Below are positions 19,082 through 53,020 of a stretch of DNA of 64,000 nt, piece after piece (position 1 is the first letter of the stretch; every line of letters begins with the position of its first letter). The DNA comes from Psychrobacter glacincola (lineage in GTDB: Bacteria > Pseudomonadota > Gammaproteobacteria > Pseudomonadales > Moraxellaceae), in contig NZ_CAJGZH010000002.1 in NCBI RefSeq assembly GCF_904846075.1, forward strand, positions 930,001-994,000. The letters are read 5' to 3'. The position numbers and the translations under genes are program-made. The notes beneath the pieces are model-generated. The model had not been told where the DNA came from and did not search any database. It was given only the letters and a program-made list of their open reading frames with translations.

Positions 19082-20284
19082 ATGAGTGAATTGAAACTGT
19101 CTGACCGCGTCAACAACATCAAACCATCGCCTACGCTAGCGATTACCAATAAAGCCAAAGAGCTAAAAGCAGCTGGTAAAGATATTATCGGTTTGGGCGC
19201 TGGTGAACCTGATTTTGATACGCCAGAGCACATTAAAAAAGCAGCAATCGATGCCATTAATGACGGTTTTACCAAATACACCGCTGTCGATGGTACGCCA
19301 GAGCTCAAAAAAGCCATCATTGAGAAGTTCAAACGTGACAACAACATCAGCTATGAGCCCAATGAAATCCTAGTATCGGTCGGTGGTAAACAATCATTTT
19401 TTAACCTTGCGCAAGCCTTTATCAATCCAGGTGATGAAGTCATCATTCCGGCACCTTACTGGGTCAGCTATCCTGACATGGTCATCATTGCAGAAGGTGT
19501 GCCAGTCATCGTCAAATGCCCTGCTGAGCAAGATTTCAAAATCACCGCTGAGCAGTTAGAAGACGCCATCACTGACAAAACCAAAATGCTGGTACTAAAC
19601 AGCCCCTCTAACCCAACAGGTATGATTTACACGTTGGATGAGCTAAAAGCCATCGCTGAAGTGCTGAGAAAGCACCCACAAGTTTATGTTGTTTCAGATG
19701 ACATGTATGAACACATCCGCTGGACGGGCGATAAGTTCTACAATATTCTGAATGCCGCACCTGAGCTAAAAGAGCGGGCAATTATTTTAAATGGCGTGTC
19801 AAAAGCATATGCGATGACTGGCTGGCGTATTGGTTACGCTGGTGGCCCTGCCAAGCTGATTGGGGCGATGAAAAAAGTACAATCACAGTCAACCTCATGC
19901 CCAACATCGATCAGCCAAGTGGCTGCCGAAGCCGCTATCAGTGGCGATCAAAGCGTGCTTACGCCGATGGTAGAAGCCTTTGAAAAGCGTTGTGATCTAG
20001 TCGTTGATGGTTTGAACGCGATTAAAGGTATTACCTGCCTGCGTCCTGATGGCGCTTTCTACGTATATCCTGACATCAAACCACTCATCAAAGCCGCTGG
20101 TCTGTCATCATGTACTGAATTTTCAACATGGTTGTTAGAGAAAGTTGGCGTAGCAGTGGTGCCTGGTGACGCCTTTGGTCTTGGTGGCTATATGCGCATC
20201 TCTTACGCAACTGATGAAGCGACGCTAAAAGACGCCTTATCACGTATCGAAAAAGCGGTTGCTGATCTAGACGTTACTGAATAA
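19082..20284 (+). CDS. aspartate aminotransferase, class Ib type
   Basis: 400 aa PLP enzyme transferring the amino group between aspartate and 2-oxoglutarate, cytosolic. Seen: GLGAGEPDFDTP near residue 39, YTAVDGTPELKKAI, NSPSNPTGMIY, SDDMYEHI, and the Schiff-base Lys at 241 in NGVSKAYAMTGWRIGYAGGP; the C-terminal Arg-containing MRISYA is conserved. The length and motifs fit the thermophile/rhizobial (Ib) class rather than E. coli AspC (Ia). A good AAAAGGA site precedes the ATG, and a strong terminator follows, so it is a single-gene unit. Prephenate aminotransferase activity is also known in this class. Confidence 0.93.
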   Translation: MSELKLSDRVNNIKPSPTLAITNKAKELKAAGKDIIGLGAGEPDFDTPEHIKKAAIDAINDGFTKYTAVDGTPELKKAIIEKFKRDNNISYEPNEILVSVGGKQSFFNLAQAFINPGDEVIIPAPYWVSYPDMVIIAEGVPVIVKCPAEQDFKITAEQLEDAITDKTKMLVLNSPSNPTGMIYTLDELKAIAEVLRKHPQVYVVSDDMYEHIRWTGDKFYNILNAAPELKERAIILNGVSKAYAMTGWRIGYAGGPAKLIGAMKKVQSQSTSCPTSISQVAAEAAISGDQSVLTPMVEAFEKRCDLVVDGLNAIKGITCLRPDGAFYVYPDIKPLIKAAGLSSCTEFSTWLLEKVGVAVVPGDAFGLGGYMRISYATDEATLKDALSRIEKAVADLDVTE

Positions 20285-38366: not shown

Positions 38367-39101
38367 TTAACTATTGTGCTTGGCTATCCAGTTTTGCATT
38401 TGCTCAATTTCAGGCTGCTGCGCGTTAATTACTTGTTGTGCCAATTGACGCATTTCTTCATTTTTGCCATACTTTAGCTGTATCTTTGCCATATCTACTG
38501 CGCCAATATGATGCGGCAACATACTACGAGCAAATGCCATATCTGGGTTAGGGTCAGCGATACCTGTCATCATTTCACTATGCATCGTATCCATACCTTT
38601 AGCATAAGCTGTCTGCATGGCTTCAGTATCAGACGTTGGCTCAGCAGCATCAGGATGGTTGGCAAGCCAGTTCTGCATTTGCTCAATTTCAGCTTTCTGA
38701 GCGTCAATAATCTCTTGTGCCAACTGACGCATTTCTGCATCCTTACCATACTTTAGCTGAATCTCTGCCATATCAACAGCACCTATATGATGACCGAGCA
38801 TTCCTTGGGCAAAAGCAGCATCGGGATCGTTGTATGCCATGCCTGCCATCATCTCATCATGCATCTTAGTCATAGAGTCGTTATACTCTCCATGCATGCC
38901 CGTCATCGCATCACCTGACATATCATGACCTACATGAGCATCCATCGCGCTAGTGTCGGTTGTAACATTATTAACGGGAGCCGCCTCGTCTTTGACAGTA
39001 GCCTCTGTTACGTCATTCGTCGGCTGACAAGCGCCAAGCATCATCACGGCACTGACACTAACTGCAAGCATGGCAAGACGTGAATTTCTTATCATTTTCA
39101 T
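38367..39101 (-). CDS. lipoprotein with two DUF305 domains
   Basis: 244 aa. A lipoprotein signal peptide has the lipobox MLGAC (Cys25). Two tandem DUF305 domains follow, with near-identical cores GHHIGAVDMAEIQLKYGKDAEM and PHHIGAVDMAKIQLKYGKNEEM, each ending AEIEQMQNWL or PEIEQMQNWI. The His-His-x-x-x-x-x-Met arrangement is a ferritin-like helical bundle thought to bind copper in the periplasm. It is the promoter-distal member of a minus-strand DUF411-DUF305-DUF305 set opposite a CusRS-type system, so copper or silver handling is likely. The two domains imply an internal duplication. Confidence 0.88.
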   Translation of the reverse strand: MKMIRNSRLAMLAVSVSAVMMLGACQPTNDVTEATVKDEAAPVNNVTTDTSAMDAHVGHDMSGDAMTGMHGEYNDSMTKMHDEMMAGMAYNDPDAAFAQGMLGHHIGAVDMAEIQLKYGKDAEMRQLAQEIIDAQKAEIEQMQNWLANHPDAAEPTSDTEAMQTAYAKGMDTMHSEMMTGIADPNPDMAFARSMLPHHIGAVDMAKIQLKYGKNEEMRQLAQQVINAQQPEIEQMQNWIAKHNS

Positions 39102-39226
39102 AGTAGATCCTTCATTACGATCGTTTGGTAGTTATGGTTCATATAAAAACTGGCAAATCAGCTAAGATCCACCAGTTGGAAAAATCATTTAATTTATGTA
39201 CTAAGAGCAGTGTGTTTTAAGGCTAT

Positions 39227-39694
39227 TTATTCTAATGCTTCGATCAGTGCCTTCATCTCTTTAATTTCACGTTGTTGTGCTTCGATGATGTCGTCAGCAA
39301 GTTGCTGTACTCTAGGGTCTTCTATATCGGCTCTTGAGCTGGTTAAGATCGCAATTGAATGATGCGGTATCATAGCCTGCATCCAATCCACTTGATCGAC
39401 GGTTGCTTGAGATCTGACGCCCCAGATACCCACGGCAAACATCAGCACACTAAGACCATAAATCATTAAGTTGACCTTAGTTTTCTTGTACATATTGCTC
39501 ATAAAGGCGAGCATAATCACTGCCATGCCTGCGCCCATATATAGCGCCATATATGCTCTGGTCTCACTAAAATAAATATGATCCCACTCATAAGTATTGA
39601 AGTACATCATGATATACATCACCACGGTAGACGTCAGCATCATGAGGGTGAACTTTACATAAGGGTTCATCTGTTTTTGCTCTGCATGATTCAT
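39227..39694 (-). CDS. membrane-anchored DUF305 protein
   Basis: 155 aa with three hydrophobic helices (about 13-30, 48-65 and 75-92) and a C-terminal DUF305-type core, MIPHHSIAILTSSRADIEDPRVQQLADDIIEAQQREIKEM. This architecture recurs in copper-resistance islands, where the PHH motif faces the periplasm and probably binds metal. It lies 76 bp downstream of the DUF411 gene and 125 bp upstream of the lipoprotein DUF305 gene, all on the same strand. Direct biochemical function is unknown. Confidence 0.87.
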   Translation of the reverse strand: MNHAEQKQMNPYVKFTLMMLTSTVVMYIMMYFNTYEWDHIYFSETRAYMALYMGAGMAVIMLAFMSNMYKKTKVNLMIYGLSVLMFAVGIWGVRSQATVDQVDWMQAMIPHHSIAILTSSRADIEDPRVQQLADDIIEAQQREIKEMKALIEALE

Positions 39695-39770
39695 CAGTCA
39701 GTCTCCATCAATGCTGCTATCAGTACTACAATGAGTAGCTGAAATTTAAAAAACTATCTAAAGTATTAAC

Positions 39771-40379
39771 TTATAGCTGCTGCTCTGCGGACTCAATCTC
39801 AGCGTATACTTGGTTTGTGCCATCTTTGTTGATTTGCATAATTTGGTATGGCATAAACTTATCTTGATATTCCATACCAGGACTACCGACGGGCATACCC
39901 GGTACCGCCAAACCAATGGCTTGCTTTGGTGGATTTTGCAAAAACTCAGCCACATACTTGGCAGGAACATGACCTTCGATGACATAACCATCACTGGTAA
40001 CGGCGGTATGGCAAGAACGCATCTCAGCAGGCACACCGTAACGCTCTTTAAATAATGACAAGTCTGCAACATCATGGGCAGTTGTCGTTAACCCATTATC
40101 TTCTGCGTGCCCTATCCATTCTTTACAACAGCCACAATTGGCATCTTTATAGACAGTGGCTGACACGTTCTTGAGCAGGTCTGGGTTGTTGGCTGGTGTC
40201 TCTGTCACTGTTTGCTTACTCTGCATAGCGTTTGCCTCACCACTGCTGGCGTTAGCGGCATTGGCAGTAGAGGGGCTAGCATTAGAAGCATTGCTGTCAG
40301 ATTGCCCGCACGCTGATAATATGGCAGCGGTTAATAAGACCGCTGACCCTCGAACAAACTTAACGGTAAAAGGCTTCAT
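39771..40379 (-). CDS. DUF411 (CopG-type) periplasmic metal-binding protein
   Basis: 202 aa. The signal peptide ends around ILSACGQSDS, which could also be a lipobox (LSAC, Cys24). A Ser/Asn/Ala-rich linker leads to the DUF411 domain: VYKDANCGCCKEWIGH holds the CGCC thiol motif, MRSCHTAVTSDGYVIEGHVPA the second Cys-His motif, and GLAVPGMPVGSPGME the Met-rich strand. Proteins of this family are found with copper efflux genes and are thought to handle Cu or Ag in the periplasm. The gene starts 102 bp from a CusR-box palindrome and diverges from the two-component genes, so it is a probable direct target. Confidence 0.9.
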   Translation of the reverse strand: MKPFTVKFVRGSAVLLTAAILSACGQSDSNASNASPSTANAANASSGEANAMQSKQTVTETPANNPDLLKNVSATVYKDANCGCCKEWIGHAEDNGLTTTAHDVADLSLFKERYGVPAEMRSCHTAVTSDGYVIEGHVPAKYVAEFLQNPPKQAIGLAVPGMPVGSPGMEYQDKFMPYQIMQINKDGTNQVYAEIESAEQQL

Positions 40380-40480
40380 AGAGGCTTCTCATAGTGTTGA
40401 ATATTTCATGGTGTTGAATATTAAAATTAGGATGTATTGAAGTCAAACTAGCATAACCACTCTGACAGTCAGATGACGCC

Positions 40481-40502
40481 AAGATGACAATTTTGTCATC
40501 TT
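40481..40502. promoter_or_regulatory. CusR/CopR-box palindrome
   Basis: A 22-bp perfect palindrome, with arms AAGATGACAA and TTGTCATCTT around TT, matches the E. coli CusR box (AAAATGACAA, 2 nt, TTGTCATTTT) in all but one base per arm. It lies exactly midway between the DUF411 gene (start 40379) and the response-regulator gene (start 40603), so one site could control both directions. Confidence 0.85.
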
Positions 40503-40602
40503 CTAGACTGAGCATAGGTTTATTACCAGTATTCCTCTATGATTGATAATAATAGAGACATTTTATATTGATCTCATCCTAAATAATTGGCGCGAGTATG
40601 CT

Positions 40603-41370
40603 ATGAAAATATTGTTAGTCGAAGATGAGTTATCGCTTGGCGACTACATTAAAAAAGGTTTAAGCGAGGCAGGTTTTATTGTTGAGCATAGAACCACAGG
40701 TTTAGATGGTTATCATGCTCTGATGACTGAGGACTTCACTGTCGTGGTGATGGATGTGATGCTGCCTGATGTGAGCGGATTTGAATTAGTCAGTAATTAT
40801 CGCGCTGCTGGTAACACCACCCCTGTATTATTTTTGACCGCAAAAGATGACCTTAGCGACCGCATAAAAGGCTTTGAGATTGGCGGTGACGACTATCTTA
40901 CCAAACCTTTTGCCTTCGCTGAGCTCTTGGTCAGAATCAAAAGCTTACTACGCCGTGCCAATCAAGCAGATTACGCCAGCACAGTGCTTCAAATGGCTGA
41001 TTTAAAACTGGATATCGCTAAACGTAGCGTGCATCGAGATAAGGGTTCTATCAAATTGACGGCCAAAGAATTTGCGCTATTGCAGTTTTTACTTGAGCAT
41101 CAAGGCGAAGTATTGCCCCGCTCTGTCATCGCTTCACAAGTATGGGATATGAATTTTGATAGCGATACCAATGTGATTGATGTGGCGATAAGACGCTTAC
41201 GAAGTAAAATCGATGATGGCTTTGAAAATAAGCTCATTCATACCGTACGCGGTATGGGCTATAAACTAGAAGCGGACAATAGCGCCGTTACAGTTAATAA
41301 TGAAACTAGCATTGATATGAGTAATGAGGCTAATACGGTTTCTAAACTCAATCATGTTGAAGTAAAATAG
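40603..41370 (+). CDS. OmpR-family response regulator, CusR/CopR type
   Basis: 255 aa from the ATG at 40603; the 20 residues upstream in the open frame are not receiver-like. The receiver domain has the acidic pair in LLVEDE, the phospho-Asp at 51 (VVVMDVMLPD) and the conserved Lys in FLTAKDDLSDRIKG. The winged-helix DNA-binding domain starts near residue 125 and contains LTAKEFALLQFLLEHQGEV and NVIDVAIRRLRSKID. About 30 polar C-terminal residues are extra. Together with the adjacent kinase and the CusR-like box, control of copper genes is the best reading. The kinase gene begins 1 bp after its stop. Confidence 0.9.
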   Translation: MKILLVEDELSLGDYIKKGLSEAGFIVEHRTTGLDGYHALMTEDFTVVVMDVMLPDVSGFELVSNYRAAGNTTPVLFLTAKDDLSDRIKGFEIGGDDYLTKPFAFAELLVRIKSLLRRANQADYASTVLQMADLKLDIAKRSVHRDKGSIKLTAKEFALLQFLLEHQGEVLPRSVIASQVWDMNFDSDTNVIDVAIRRLRSKIDDGFENKLIHTVRGMGYKLEADNSAVTVNNETSIDMSNEANTVSKLNHVEVK

Positions 41371-41371
41371 C

Positions 41372-42853
41372 ATGGCATATAAATCCGAGCATCGACGCTT
41401 GTCATTACTGTGGCGCACTACCCTAGTATTAACGGTATGTGTGCTGATATCTCAAGCTTTTTTGTACATATGGATACAGCGTTCGGTTAATGATCATTTT
41501 GAACAAATGGACTCAGAGATCCTGACTCACGCTGCGTTTAATTTACGACAGTACATGACAGAGGTGACATCGGATGATCAGCGCTCTAACAACCTTGCCG
41601 ACCCTGCTCATCTCGCCAATACAGCATCATCCGTGATAGATATCTTTCGACCAGATTATGAAGTCAAAACAATTATCACTGACCATAATGGACATGTCAT
41701 TAATAGTCAGCCAAAGGATTTTATTGATAAACTCAATGACTCCCAATTGGTCGAAAAACTATGGCAGCAGCACCGCGATCAACCCTTTGACTTGCAGCTT
41801 AACCATCGTCATTATCGCGCGCTGGTCATTGAGCACTCTAATCGCTTGGCATTAATCGCGCTACCGATTGATGTGCATCATCAATACCTTGCCCAGTTTA
41901 ATCGCCATCTTATTCTGATACTTATTGCGATCACTTTTATCTTAGTATCAGTGGCGGCTTTTAGCGTCTATTTAGGATTCGCCCCCTTAGCGACCATCAG
42001 TCAAAAAATGGCACGTATCAACGCCGAGCAGTTAGACGATAGAATCATCGTCTCTGAAATGCCAAGCGAGCTGCGACCCTTGGCTGACGCTTATAATGCC
42101 ATGATGGATAAACTTGAACACAACTTTGCCTCATTATCACAGTTTTCAGATGACATCGCTCACGAACTGCGCACACCACTGGCAACGTTGAGCACTCAAA
42201 CTCAAGTGATGCTCAGTAAACCTAGAGACCATCAAGAATATGTCGAGCAGCTACATCATCAACACGACACGCTCAAGCAACTATCCCTGCTAATTAACAA
42301 TATGCTATTGCTGGCAAAAACTCAAAAAGGTCTCTACGACTCACAACGTCATCTTGTCGATACCAACTCACTGATAATTAAGCTCATCGATTATTTTGAA
42401 CTGATAGCCGAAGAGCGCGGTATCTCTTTTGAGAAAAAAGGTGAGTTTGATGTGGTATTAGGGGATGAGAGCTTGTTACAAAGGCTGTTTGCCAACTTGA
42501 TATCCAATGCGATTTACTACGCCGCCAGCGACAGTATCATTACTATTACCGCCGTTTCTAAGACTGCTAGCCTCATAAAACATAACGCTCACGCCCTTAG
42601 AGAAACGGCTCAGCAGCCATCGCTAAACATCACCATCACTAATCGCTTGCAGACGCCTCTAACTCAAGCGGAAGCAGATAGACTGTTTGAACGCTTTTAT
42701 CGTCATCACAAATCCAATAATCAGCATTCGGGCACAGGGCTGGGATTGGCCATCGTACAAGCGATCGTCAATGCCCATAACGGCAAAGTCAGTATTACCA
42801 TTAAGGATGGGTACTACTTTCAAGTTAACGTACAGTTATTAAAAGAATCATAG
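41372..42853 (+). CDS. sensor histidine kinase, CusS/CopS type
   Basis: 493 aa inner-membrane kinase. The first membrane helix is about residues 13-33 and the second about 178-200, enclosing a periplasmic sensor of roughly 145 residues. A HAMP linker leads to the dimerisation helix with the phospho-acceptor His264 in SDDIAHELRTPLATL. The ATPase domain has the N box NLISNAIYYA (from residue 375), a short insert and the G box GTGLGLAIVQAI (from about 454). The periplasmic part has several His residues (LQLNHRHYRALVIEHS) that could bind metal. It is co-transcribed with the response regulator. Its TAG stop merges with a copy of the interspersed repeat end. Confidence 0.9.
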   Translation: MAYKSEHRRLSLLWRTTLVLTVCVLISQAFLYIWIQRSVNDHFEQMDSEILTHAAFNLRQYMTEVTSDDQRSNNLADPAHLANTASSVIDIFRPDYEVKTIITDHNGHVINSQPKDFIDKLNDSQLVEKLWQQHRDQPFDLQLNHRHYRALVIEHSNRLALIALPIDVHHQYLAQFNRHLILILIAITFILVSVAAFSVYLGFAPLATISQKMARINAEQLDDRIIVSEMPSELRPLADAYNAMMDKLEHNFASLSQFSDDIAHELRTPLATLSTQTQVMLSKPRDHQEYVEQLHHQHDTLKQLSLLINNMLLLAKTQKGLYDSQRHLVDTNSLIIKLIDYFELIAEERGISFEKKGEFDVVLGDESLLQRLFANLISNAIYYAASDSIITITAVSKTASLIKHNAHALRETAQQPSLNITITNRLQTPLTQAEADRLFERFYRHHKSNNQHSGTGLGLAIVQAIVNAHNGKVSITIKDGYYFQVNVQLLKES

Positions 42854-44309: not shown

Positions 44310-44735
44310 TTACTTTTCAGATTTATCTAAATCAATAGACACAGAATTGATGCAATAGCGCATCCCCGTCGTCTCGCTTGGGCCGTCAGGGAAGACATGA
44401 CCTAAATGTGCGCCACAGTTACTACAGGTCACTTCTGTCCGCGTCATGCCAAGCGAATTATCCACATGCTCCTCGATAGCGCTGTTATCAACTCCTTGGT
44501 CAAAACTTGGCCAACCACAGCTGGCATCAAATTTATTGCTTGAGTCAAATAAGCTCGCACCGCAGCCTTTGCAGCGATAAATACCGTCATCAGTCGCATC
44601 GTTATAGACGCCCGTAAATGGGCGTTCTGTACCCTTTTCACGCATCACGTGATATTCATCAGCACTCAAACGCTCTTTCCAATCCGCTTCTGTTAACTGG
44701 CTGATCTCTTCTTGGCTCAGTTGATTGTCTTGCAT
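44310..44735 (-). CDS. msrB: peptide-methionine (R)-S-oxide reductase
   Basis: 141 aa. It repairs the R-epimer of methionine sulfoxide in proteins using thioredoxin. Zinc is bound by two CxxC pairs, CKGCGASLF and [10 protein letters not shown]. The catalytic Cys is in RYCINSVSI near the C-terminus, and [19 protein letters not shown] is a family signature. [10 protein letters not shown] supplies the second redox-relevant Cys region. A good AAGGAT ribosome site precedes the ATG. It lies upstream of the glutathione peroxidase gene on the same strand. Confidence 0.95.
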
Positions 44736-45052: not shown

Positions 45053-45137
45053 AATGCAAGTTATTCTTGCATTTGCAAATATACTACCCTTAAAAACAGC
45101 TTGCATTGATACTGGTAATGCAATAATATCTTGCATT
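45053..45137. promoter_or_regulatory. array of TTGCATT motifs upstream of the HTH-aminotransferase
   Basis: Five copies of (C)TTGCATT in 85 bp: forward at 45066-45073, 45100-45107 and 45130-45137, and reverse at 45053-45060 and 45117-45123. The first pair forms a perfect inverted repeat with 8-bp arms and a 5-bp spacer (AATGCAAG/CTTGCATT). The array ends 66 bp before the start codon of a gene that itself encodes a DNA-binding domain, so autoregulation is likely (inference). The remainder of the gap 44736-45203 shows nothing else. Confidence 0.65.
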
Positions 45138-45203
45138 AAGGCTTAATTAAAACAAATGCCTGCTTTCCTTCTCTCCATTACCAACTAATGAATAAAGGCT
45201 TGA

Positions 45204-46853
45204 ATGATTATGGCTGATGACAAAAATAAAAGCACACAAGCCGAAAGGCTGGTACAGCTACGTCGTGATAAAGGGCTGACTGCTGAGCAATTAGCACAAG
45301 CCATGACTGCAGCAGGCGCAAAAGTCAGTCGCGGTGCTATCTCGAATTGGGAGCGTGGCACCAATGGTATTGTGTCATCTAAACTACCAACGCTAGCACA
45401 CATTTTAGGCTGCAGCGAAGGCTATCTGTTACGCGGCGAACTAAAAAACGACAGTGATAATAATAAAGAGGTGAGTAAGAGCGCTCATTCTCATAACAAA
45501 AACAGTCAAAGTACGGCACCCGCTCAAGCTGATAAGATACATGAATCACAAGCCAATCAAACGACTACAACTCCTACTATAGATACAAACTCACAAAACA
45601 ACCCTATGAGTGGTCACGCTATGAACACAATAAAAAAATCGGATAAATTGCAAAATGTTTGCTACGACATTCGAGGCCCGCTATTACAAACAGCCAATAA
45701 GATGGAAGCAGAAGGCAAACGTATATTAAAGCTGAACGTCGGTAACCCAGCCCCCTTTGGTTTAGAAGCCCCGCATGAGATTTTGCGCGATGTGGCAATG
45801 AATTTACCAGACGCGACCGGCTATTCCGACTCGCAAGGGATTTTTTCAGCGCGTAAAGCCGTCCTACAATACTACCAATCAAAAGGGTTGCTATCGGCAG
45901 TTGATGTTCGTGACGTCTATTTAGGCAACGGAGTTTCTGAGCTGATTGTAATGACCATGCAGGCCTTGATGAATGATGGTGACGAAGTGCTTATTCCAAT
46001 GCCAGACTACCCGCTTTGGACGGCAGCGGCGAACCTAGCTGGCGGCACAGCGGTACATTATCGCTGTAATGAAGACGATAATTGGCATCCTGATATCGAA
46101 GATATTAAATCTAAAATCACCTCTAAAACCAAAGGTATCGTGGTGATTAACCCTAATAATCCAACAGGTTCGCTTTATAGTGATGAATTGCTGAAACAAA
46201 TTATTGAGGTCGCTAAAGCGCATGATTTAATCATCATGGCCGATGAAATTTATGATCGTATTCTTTATGATGATATGGTACACACCCCAATGAGTACGTT
46301 GACTGATGATGTGCTGGTACTCTCATATAATGGATTATCAAAATCGCATCGTATCGCGGGATTCCGGGCAGGTTGGATGATGGTGTCTGGCAAAAAACAC
46401 CATGCCACTGACTTTATCGAAGGCTTGGACATGTTAGCGTCTATGCGCTTGTGTTCCAACGTCCAAGGTCAGTATGCCATTCAAACGGCGATGGGTGGCT
46501 ATCAAAGCATGAAAGAGCTCACGTCAGAGCGTGGGCGCTTATATAAGCAGCGTGAAATGGCCGTGTCACGACTTAATGCGATCAAAGGTATCTCTTGTAC
46601 CATGCCACAAGGCGCGTTTTATTGCTTTCCAAAGATGGATCCTGATGTTTACCCTATCGAAGATGATATGGCATTTATGATGGATTTGCTTGTTGAAGAA
46701 AATGTCTTAATGGTGCAAGGAACAGGCTTTAACTGGGATAAACCCGATCATTTCCGCTTGGTGTTTTTGCCAAACCTACATGATTTAGAGGATGCCATGG
46801 ACCGCTTGGATCGCTTCTTTGCCAAAAAGCGCAAACAATTTGGTACCGAATAA
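45204..46853 (+). CDS. XRE-type HTH domain fused to AlaA-like aminotransferase
   Basis: 549 aa. Residues about 12-75 form a Cro/CI-type helix-turn-helix: AERLVQLRRDKGLTAEQLAQAMTAAG, GAISNWERGTNGI and a closing LPTLAHILGCSEGYLL. A polar Asn/Ser/Gln-rich linker (about 80-145) leads to a class I aminotransferase of the alanine/valine-pyruvate (AlaA) type: LKLNVGNPAPFGLEAPHEIL, VINPNNPTGSLY, ADEIYDRILYDD and the PLP Lys380 in NGLSKSHRIAGFRAGW. All catalytic motifs are intact. It is probably an enzyme that also binds DNA, or a PLP-sensing regulator. The order differs from MocR/GntR proteins, which have a winged helix. Start: ATG at 45204 or 45210. Confidence 0.9.
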   Translation: MIMADDKNKSTQAERLVQLRRDKGLTAEQLAQAMTAAGAKVSRGAISNWERGTNGIVSSKLPTLAHILGCSEGYLLRGELKNDSDNNKEVSKSAHSHNKNSQSTAPAQADKIHESQANQTTTTPTIDTNSQNNPMSGHAMNTIKKSDKLQNVCYDIRGPLLQTANKMEAEGKRILKLNVGNPAPFGLEAPHEILRDVAMNLPDATGYSDSQGIFSARKAVLQYYQSKGLLSAVDVRDVYLGNGVSELIVMTMQALMNDGDEVLIPMPDYPLWTAAANLAGGTAVHYRCNEDDNWHPDIEDIKSKITSKTKGIVVINPNNPTGSLYSDELLKQIIEVAKAHDLIIMADEIYDRILYDDMVHTPMSTLTDDVLVLSYNGLSKSHRIAGFRAGWMMVSGKKHHATDFIEGLDMLASMRLCSNVQGQYAIQTAMGGYQSMKELTSERGRLYKQREMAVSRLNAIKGISCTMPQGAFYCFPKMDPDVYPIEDDMAFMMDLLVEENVLMVQGTGFNWDKPDHFRLVFLPNLHDLEDAMDRLDRFFAKKRKQFGTE

Positions 46854-51814: not shown

Positions 51815-51895
51815 TAGACGCATCATTTGCTTGGTTAGCTGCTATTTTATACCTTGCAAACCAATAATCATAAAAGTGAATCACAGGATAATGCT

Positions 51896-53020
51896 ATGAC
51901 CGATAACACCAATAACAACAACGCTCATCTCGATCAAAAACCTACCATCAATGGTCATTTACAAGATAAATTGGTCAGAGATAGCATCACCCACAATCAA
52001 AATATTACGTCACAAGTGCAAGCACGTCAAAGCTATGAAACTAATACCACGCTTAATACGGGTATTGATGCTGGCGTCGAAAACAGCAAGAGAAATGACT
52101 TTACACAAGTCCAAGACCTACCAACGGGAACGCCACAAGGCCAGCAAACCACTATGCCAAACCATACTACCAGCAGCAACACTGTAGATAATGCATCTGC
52201 ACAAACACAAACCGCCAAACAAACACTTTTTAATCAGCGTGATGATATCAATAATCCGCATACGCCTGATACCGATGGTAATGAAGAAACGCATTTTGGC
52301 TACAAGACTGTCAACAAGGCTGAAAAGCAAGCACGCGTTGCGGACGTATTTACCTCAGTTGCCAAAAAATACGACATCATGAACGACTTAATGTCATTTG
52401 GTATTCATCGCCTATGGAAGCGTTATGCCATTAGCTTATCAGGCGTGCGTGCGGGTCAACATGTGCTTGATATCGCTGGCGGTACGGGTGATTTGGCCAA
52501 AGTCTTTAGCCGTGAAGTCGGTAGAAATGGCCATGTGGTGTTATCAGATATCAATGCCGCCATGTTAGAAGTCGGTCGTGAACGCTTAATCAATGCTGGC
52601 TGCAATAACGTCGATTTTGTACTTGCCAATGCAGAAACACTCGCGCCATTCGATGACAATAGCTTTGATTTGGTCACTATCAGCTTTGGTCTACGTAATG
52701 TCACGGACAAAGACGCAGCGCTCAAATCGATGTATCGCGTGCTGAAGCCAGGTGGTCGTTTATTAATTTTGGAGTTCTCAAAACCTGTATTTGAGCCATT
52801 GTCTAAAGCCTATGATTTATACTCATTTACCGCCTTACCTATTATGGGCAAGCTGATTGCCAATGATTCTGAGAGTTATCAATACTTGGCCGAATCGATT
52901 CGTATGCATCCTGATCAACAGACGTTGAAACAAATGATGCAGCAAGCGGGCTTTGAAAATTGTGATTATCATAACTTAACGGCTGGTATTGTCGCTGTCC
53001 ATCGCGGCTTTAAAGCGTAA
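51896..53020 (+). CDS. ubiE: UbiE C-methyltransferase with long N-terminal extension
   Basis: 374 aa from the ATG at 51896 (AGGA site seven bases upstream; the frame is open from 51854). UbiE is the SAM-dependent C-methylase of ubiquinone and menaquinone synthesis. The catalytic part begins near residue 131 with [20 protein letters not shown], followed by SAM motif [53 protein letters not shown] and the C-terminal [13 protein letters not shown]. About 130 residues before it are Asn/Thr/Gln-rich with no known domain, whereas typical UbiE is about 250 aa. The extension looks translated, since it keeps an open frame and a good start. It is first of a ubi operon. Confidence 0.93.

Follow-up and report, generated by a model that had tools for sequence, protein, structure and literature searches.

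BirA, PutA, and NadR are enzymes that repress their own genes, a kind of regulator already known, and to our knowledge few enzymes are known to do so directly. How enzyme-repressors with such a double function originate is an open question. A related layout is found in the MocR/GabR regulators, which have an N-terminal HTH, a linker, and a C-terminal fold-type I aminotransferase-like domain (PMC12915131, PMC5026710), as does the protein considered here. A third point of reference is the plasmid protein StbA, which recognizes direct repeats of 9 bp separated by two bases (PMC3098194) and represses its own promoter by a factor of 50 (PMC3937220).

The protein considered here is encoded in a 64-kb stretch of the genome of Psychrobacter glacincola (the window, from whose first nucleotide all positions are counted). 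Its gene, alaA (45204-46853, + strand), specifies 549 amino acids, in which an XRE (Cro/CI-type) HTH domain (residues 14-79; 45243-45440, +) is joined by a low-complexity linker (residues 80-138; 45441-45617, +) to an AlaA-type aminotransferase (residues 139-549; 45618-46850, +). This composition had been proposed in the initial annotation, and the open reading frame, Pfam, and the match to E. coli AlaA (4cvq) agree with it. The HTH domain scores above the curated Pfam cut-offs for both HTH_19 (residues 14-79; 31.3 bits vs. 30.2) and HTH_3 (25.6 vs. 23), which places it among Cro/CI-type domains, and it is matched by the P22 C2 repressor 1adr (residues 25-81, E 4e-4) and by repressor families of PHROGs (down to 6e-13). 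The remainder is covered by Aminotran_1_2 (residues 174-533, 202.8 bits), and its top match among solved structures is E. coli AlaA (residues 135-540, E 2e-168). When the window protein is aligned with 16 other AlaA (17 rows in all), K380, D347, Y350, R388, and R518, which we take to be catalytic in transaminases of fold type I, are invariant, as are others, so the earlier claim that AlaA motifs are retained holds. Similarity over the full length and the kept catalytic residues mark the protein as AlaA-type; its score with NCBIfam PRK08363 (342.7 bits) is under that model's cut-off of 534. A full-length model of the fusion protein was set aside (mean pLDDT 62.8; 23-65 per block over the first 80 residues).

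Since its parts stand in the order found in MocR proteins, one might regard the fusion as a regulator of MocR kind, in which the aminotransferase part has lost its transaminase function and serves purely for sensing. BioL, a MocR repressor composed of an N-terminal HTH, a linker, and an aminotransferase-like domain (PMC12915131), would be the precedent. However, only XRE-type HTH models were found by Pfam in the N-terminus of the fusion, with no winged helix (GntR), a departure from MocR that the initial annotation had seen correctly. Moreover, the aminotransferase part is close to E. coli AlaA, with its catalytic residues kept, and the fusion is the sole close AlaA homologue of its genome, the next match having 28% identity (E 2e-37). 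Because the catalytic residues are invariant and the next aminotransferase is so distant, the fusion is probably an active enzyme and the principal AlaA of its genome. A role as mere sensor seems very improbable.

The window holds three other items of note. The second-best AlaA match of the genome lies within it (19082-20263, +; 28% identity). At 51854-53020 (+) there is an ORF for a UbiE-like methyltransferase, judged by eye, with an N-terminal extension of about 150 residues, rich in Asn, Gln, and Thr, before the enzyme part. Finally, two DUF305-like proteins and one DUF411-like protein (also by eye) adjoin a response regulator/sensor kinase pair at 38367-42853, which looks like a cluster for response to metal (copper).

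Upstream of alaA, five copies of TTGCATT in both orientations lie where they had been reported, within 85 bp (45053-45137) ending 66 bp before the ATG. They are at 45053 (-), 45067 (+), 45101 (+), 45117 (-), and 45131 (+). The word is rarer in the window than in shuffled sequence (14 observed vs. 28.7 expected), so the cluster is not a matter of composition. At the shuffled density, five copies would fall within a given stretch of 85 bp with a Poisson chance of about 6e-10, for a stretch picked post hoc, and the chance over all start positions in the window is roughly 4e-5. A reading of the words as single sites gave way to one of two perfect dyads and a half-site: a distal candidate operator, AATGCAA-N7-TTGCATT (45053-45073), a proximal candidate operator, AATGCAA-TAATATC-TTGCATT (45117-45137), 64 bp from the first (neither is assigned a strand), and a lone TTGCATT between them (45101-45107, +). 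The 3.3-Mb genome has exactly two copies of AATGCAA-N7-TTGCATT, both before the fusion gene.

The two dyads are differently conserved within the genus. The proximal dyad is present in 39 of 40 loci (from 40 of the 41 genomes of the genus), the remaining one being L013, whose sequence ends 161 nt upstream of the frame, probably at the end of a contig. Its spacer is nearly invariant (TAATATC in 37 loci, TAAAATC in 2), whereas the distal spacer takes 15 forms among 34 loci. The distance between the dyads varies from 44 to 92 bp, and their helical phasing is weak (resultant about 0.5). The proximal spacer includes a likely -10 sequence, TAATAT (45124-45129, +), 17 nt after a likely -35 sequence, TTGCAT (45101-45106, +), that forms part of the half-site. 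All 39 loci with the dyad have a TTG-initial hexamer exactly 17 nt before TAATAT/TAAAAT (TTGCAT in 17, TTGCAA in 14, others in 8), and none has one at 16 or 18 nt. TTGCAT is a poor -35 sequence, and a scan with the promoter consensus did not pick up this arrangement. With the conserved -10 lying inside the proximal dyad and the -35 supplied by the half-site, the arrangement is best read as autorepression by promoter occlusion, with both promoter elements built into the candidate operators.

It is conceivable that the autoregulation is right and that the array mainly serves the divergent MsrB-like gene (44310-44735, - strand; from the ORF list, with the MsrB assignment made by eye) or is an activator site. 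The intergenic region is indeed shared with that gene, and the distal dyad lies upstream at the variable distance just given. But the nearly invariant -10 sequence within the proximal dyad belongs to a promoter that faces alaA, and we consider such a role for the array improbable beside repression of alaA.

The family surveyed, Moraxellaceae, comprised 149 genomes, 148 of which had a match to the fusion protein at E <= 0.001 (some of them not AlaA). From 141 of these came 143 loci, to which 3 loci of the class, without a domain, were added. Named here (by our own labels) according to their N-termini, the 143 loci consist of 68 of XRE type, 30 QKKS, 7 DPNF, 4 YFVN, and 34 without a domain; two loci, L013 and L139, have less than 200 nt of upstream sequence. 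The core dyad TGCAA-N7-TTGCA occurs within 250 nt upstream in 54 of the 68 XRE loci, with 86 copies vs. 0.16 expected, and in none of the 78 loci without the XRE domain, counts made on the same loci from which the motifs, here and below, were derived. The 14 XRE loci lacking it in that interval are nine with another recognition helix, L013, L042 (where the dyad lies further upstream), and L046, L131, and L135 (with loose half-sites only). In L136, of the genus g10 (probably Moraxella), the XRE domain has been lost and there is no dyad. Outside the family, none of 22 AlaA found in 274 genomes of the class matches the XRE part; long frames there (in G272 and others) that might have been taken for N-terminal extensions look like read-through, the N-terminus having been read in eight of the 22. 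Since the dyad array tracks the HTH domain, the fusion AlaA likely controls its own gene. The initial annotation had said as much, and in that respect it stands; the array itself had to be recast as two dyads and a half-site over a conserved promoter, which points to repression.

The recognition helix bears on the same question. At a position that presumably aligns with Gln29 of 434 repressor, and with a somewhat wider upstream window, Gly is found in 55 XRE loci with the dyad and 4 without, and another residue in 0 with and 9 without, a link between helix and operator that is confounded with phylogeny. Might the dyads be the sites of a transcription factor other than the fusion, whose own HTH would then have another role or be a relic? 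Against this are the absence of the dyad wherever AlaA has no XRE domain, its change along with the recognition helix, and the conservation of the domain itself: by eye, in the N-termini of 90 loci of the family, the linker differs between species in both length and sequence, and the XRE domain is far better conserved. (Of the HTH and linker, whose conservation in Moraxellaceae the initial annotation had raised, only the domain is thus well kept, and related genera carry other domains in its place.) We judge a separate factor to be unlikely, and a regulatory role for the fused domain remains the preferred reading.

Two loci groups with other recognition helices show other dyads. TGTCAG-N5-CTGACA lies about 60 nt before alaA in 3 of 6 loci of genus g7 (L040, L041, and L043), and AAGTCAA-N6-TTGACTT in the sole locus of g8 (L059), which has an XRE-AlaA with a different recognition helix. 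As alternative operators these are suggestive only.

A second target may exist, one absent from the initial annotation. TGCAA-N7-TTGCA occurs at 8 places in the P. glacincola genome, vs. 2 for the reversed control pattern. Of the six that are not at alaA, five are inside open frames and one is intergenic, upstream of ilvA, which encodes threonine ammonia-lyase. The form TGCAAT-N4-[TC]CTTGCA precedes ilvA in 24 of 29 loci of the genus (one of which differs at C); in the five that lack it, L259 misses by a single base. It is absent from 30 ilvA loci of other genera. In 26 loci anchored on a downstream block, conservation is 92-100% in the 5' half-site and 100% in the 3' half-site, the latter partly because the anchor preferred the 3' half. 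A few bases flanking the dyad on either side are also conserved (73-100%); further out, conservation drops to 38-73% at five upstream positions and 35-69% at five downstream positions, before another conserved block. A conserved TAGGC follows the 3' half-site at 17 nt and may mark a promoter, and the likely -35 of ilvA overlaps the candidate site. So conserved a site could be another regulator's, which would suit the separate factor considered above. Beyond these two genes, the stricter pattern TGCAAKNNNNNCTTGCA has 15 further places in 12 genomes of the genus; a wider regulon was given up when the 8 of them that were fetched all proved to be inside stop-to-stop frames of at least 90 codons. 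The predicted regulon, as far as seen, is thus probably alaA and ilvA.

Also new relative to the initial annotation is the replacement of the XRE domain, in related genera, by other domains with other candidate operators. The best represented, QKKS, accounts for 26 loci of Acinetobacter (g15) and 4 of g9, a neighbouring genus. The QKKS domain is similar to the DNA-binding domain of plasmid StbA (7pc1), the similarity that defines the StbA family, by phmmer (4e-5) and by profile (2.7e-6); in the profile search, TAL-effector repeats outrank 7pc1 through summed stretches, each worthless singly. A model of the domain (60 residues, pLDDT 77) also ranks 7pc1 first (Z 7.4, vs. 6.4 for the next row; rmsd 2.5 over 58 residues), with the proviso that Z under 8 may reflect a common arrangement, and it is the sequence match that carries the case for StbA.

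Before alaA of the QKKS type are direct repeats of AAGCAAA on one strand, with 79 copies in 30 of 30 loci vs. 4.5 expected, and there are none on that strand in the 14 Acinetobacter loci without the domain. Typical positions in Acinetobacter are near -113, -102, -80, and -49, giving steps of about 11, 22, and 31 bp. Among named Acinetobacter species, a set that overlaps the loci just counted and is not independent of them, all 21 with the domain have at least two AAGCA[AT] and the 8 without it have none. Of 8 domain-bearing genomes searched, 6 have an exact pair of AAGCAAA spaced by 11 bp at alaA, whereas G110 and G147 have such a pair at another place; of four domainless genomes, two have a pair away from alaA and two have none. 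Under a stricter rule for an array (at least two copies of a longer motif), 6 of the 30 QKKS loci fail.

The DPNF type is confined to g13, where ATAGG-N6-CCTAT precedes alaA in 7 of 7 loci, with none expected and none in other groups. A longer form of it occurs once per genome, at alaA, in all five of the seven DPNF genomes searched and is absent from two genomes of other genera, while the reversed control has 2 matches in all. The domain has no Pfam or PHROG match, and its best PDB match is at 0.28; it could be a remote relative of XRE. The link between domain and site, similar for QKKS and DPNF to that for XRE, is a further argument against a separate factor. The YFVN type (MYFVNKKN...) is represented by four loci of g11 (L063, L064, L067, and L125). 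It has no Pfam match or convincing PDB match, only one weak PHROG of unknown function (0.0043), and no firm operator was found upstream of alaA. Words containing GACAG do occur there. None of the swapped operators appears to extend to ilvA: in 30 ilvA loci of other genera there are 0 dyads and at most one AAGCA[AT] per locus.

How often did these changes happen? In a quick tree of 92 aminotransferase parts, DPNF and YFVN each form one clade (support 99), and 3 changes are needed for the XRE type and 6 for QKKS. A second tree, built more carefully from 47 rows, requires 8 changes for QKKS (6-8 in bootstrap trees, with at least 2 forced by supported branches). In both supported pairs, which are from Acinetobacter, AAGCAAA in at least one copy goes with the domain; under the stricter array rule, the average is 1.8 of 2 pairs, and two pairs are too few to reach significance. 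Because the four N-terminal types show no evident mutual similarity, and QKKS, DPNF, and YFVN have no Pfam match above cut-off, there seem to have been at least three separate acquisitions of a domain for which there is operator evidence (XRE, StbA-like, and DPNF). We find it quite probable that AlaA, a housekeeping aminotransferase, has served as a regulatory chassis, receiving at least three domains (perhaps four, with YFVNKK) with matching operators, losing both jointly several times in Acinetobacter, and adding ilvA in Psychrobacter.

Taken together, the sequences suggest that an alanine-forming aminotransferase is a ligand-tuned repressor of alaA and ilvA and that AlaA has been converted to this use at least three times, with its own operators each time; we put the probability at about 0.82. 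In P. glacincola, the fold-type I dimer would bring a pair of XRE domains to each TGCAA-N7-TTGCA dyad, where the bound protein would block the -35 and -10 of alaA. The gene ilvA would be repressed likewise, through the site overlapping its likely -35. As pure inference, a ligand of the aminotransferase part might alter DNA binding: the PLP/PMP state, alanine, pyruvate, glutamate, or a branched-chain amino or keto acid. The added target, ilvA, points to the balance of pyruvate, alanine, and branched-chain amino acids, and both the output of alanine and entry to isoleucine synthesis would follow the balance of pyruvate and amino acids. In the wider family, AlaA would have become a regulator at least three times, by way of XRE, StbA-like, and a third, short domain, the operator changing together with the domain.

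If this is true, the family amounts to a repeated natural experiment on how an enzyme becomes its own regulator. It has domainless members, three or four types of domain, and losses, and the gain and loss of regulation can be compared directly on one enzyme, mostly with predicted operators. It also predicts a link between the synthesis of alanine and that of isoleucine, and it is relevant to Acinetobacter, whose AlaA has an N-terminal domain resembling that of a plasmid stability protein. CDD PRK13355, "bifunctional HTH-domain containing protein/aminotransferase," is probably a database label for the same architecture. In the open-licence literature, we found neither that label nor a report of an XRE-AlaA fusion or domain swap.

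Like the known autoregulatory enzymes, the fusion bears a DNA-binding domain on an enzyme and has candidate operators at its own promoter. What sets it apart from BirA, PutA, and NadR is that its enzyme part is an aminotransferase and that, in related genera, the N-terminal domain is a different one, with candidate operators to match. The aminotransferase part resembles E. coli AlaA over its whole length, but E. coli AlaA has no DNA-binding domain. In contrast to MocR proteins, which have a winged helix (PMC5026710), the AlaA fusions combine an XRE or StbA-like domain with a complete AlaA. R388 StbA (7pc1), to which the Acinetobacter N-terminus is related, has direct-repeat sites of 11-bp period (PMC3098194), and the candidate repeats before Acinetobacter alaA may be of a similar kind. 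R388 StbA represses its own promoter (PMC3937220), as is proposed for Acinetobacter AlaA. The difference is that StbA is a plasmid stability protein, whereas the Acinetobacter domain is on an enzyme and its candidate sites are AAGCAAA repeated at about 11, 22, and 31 bp.
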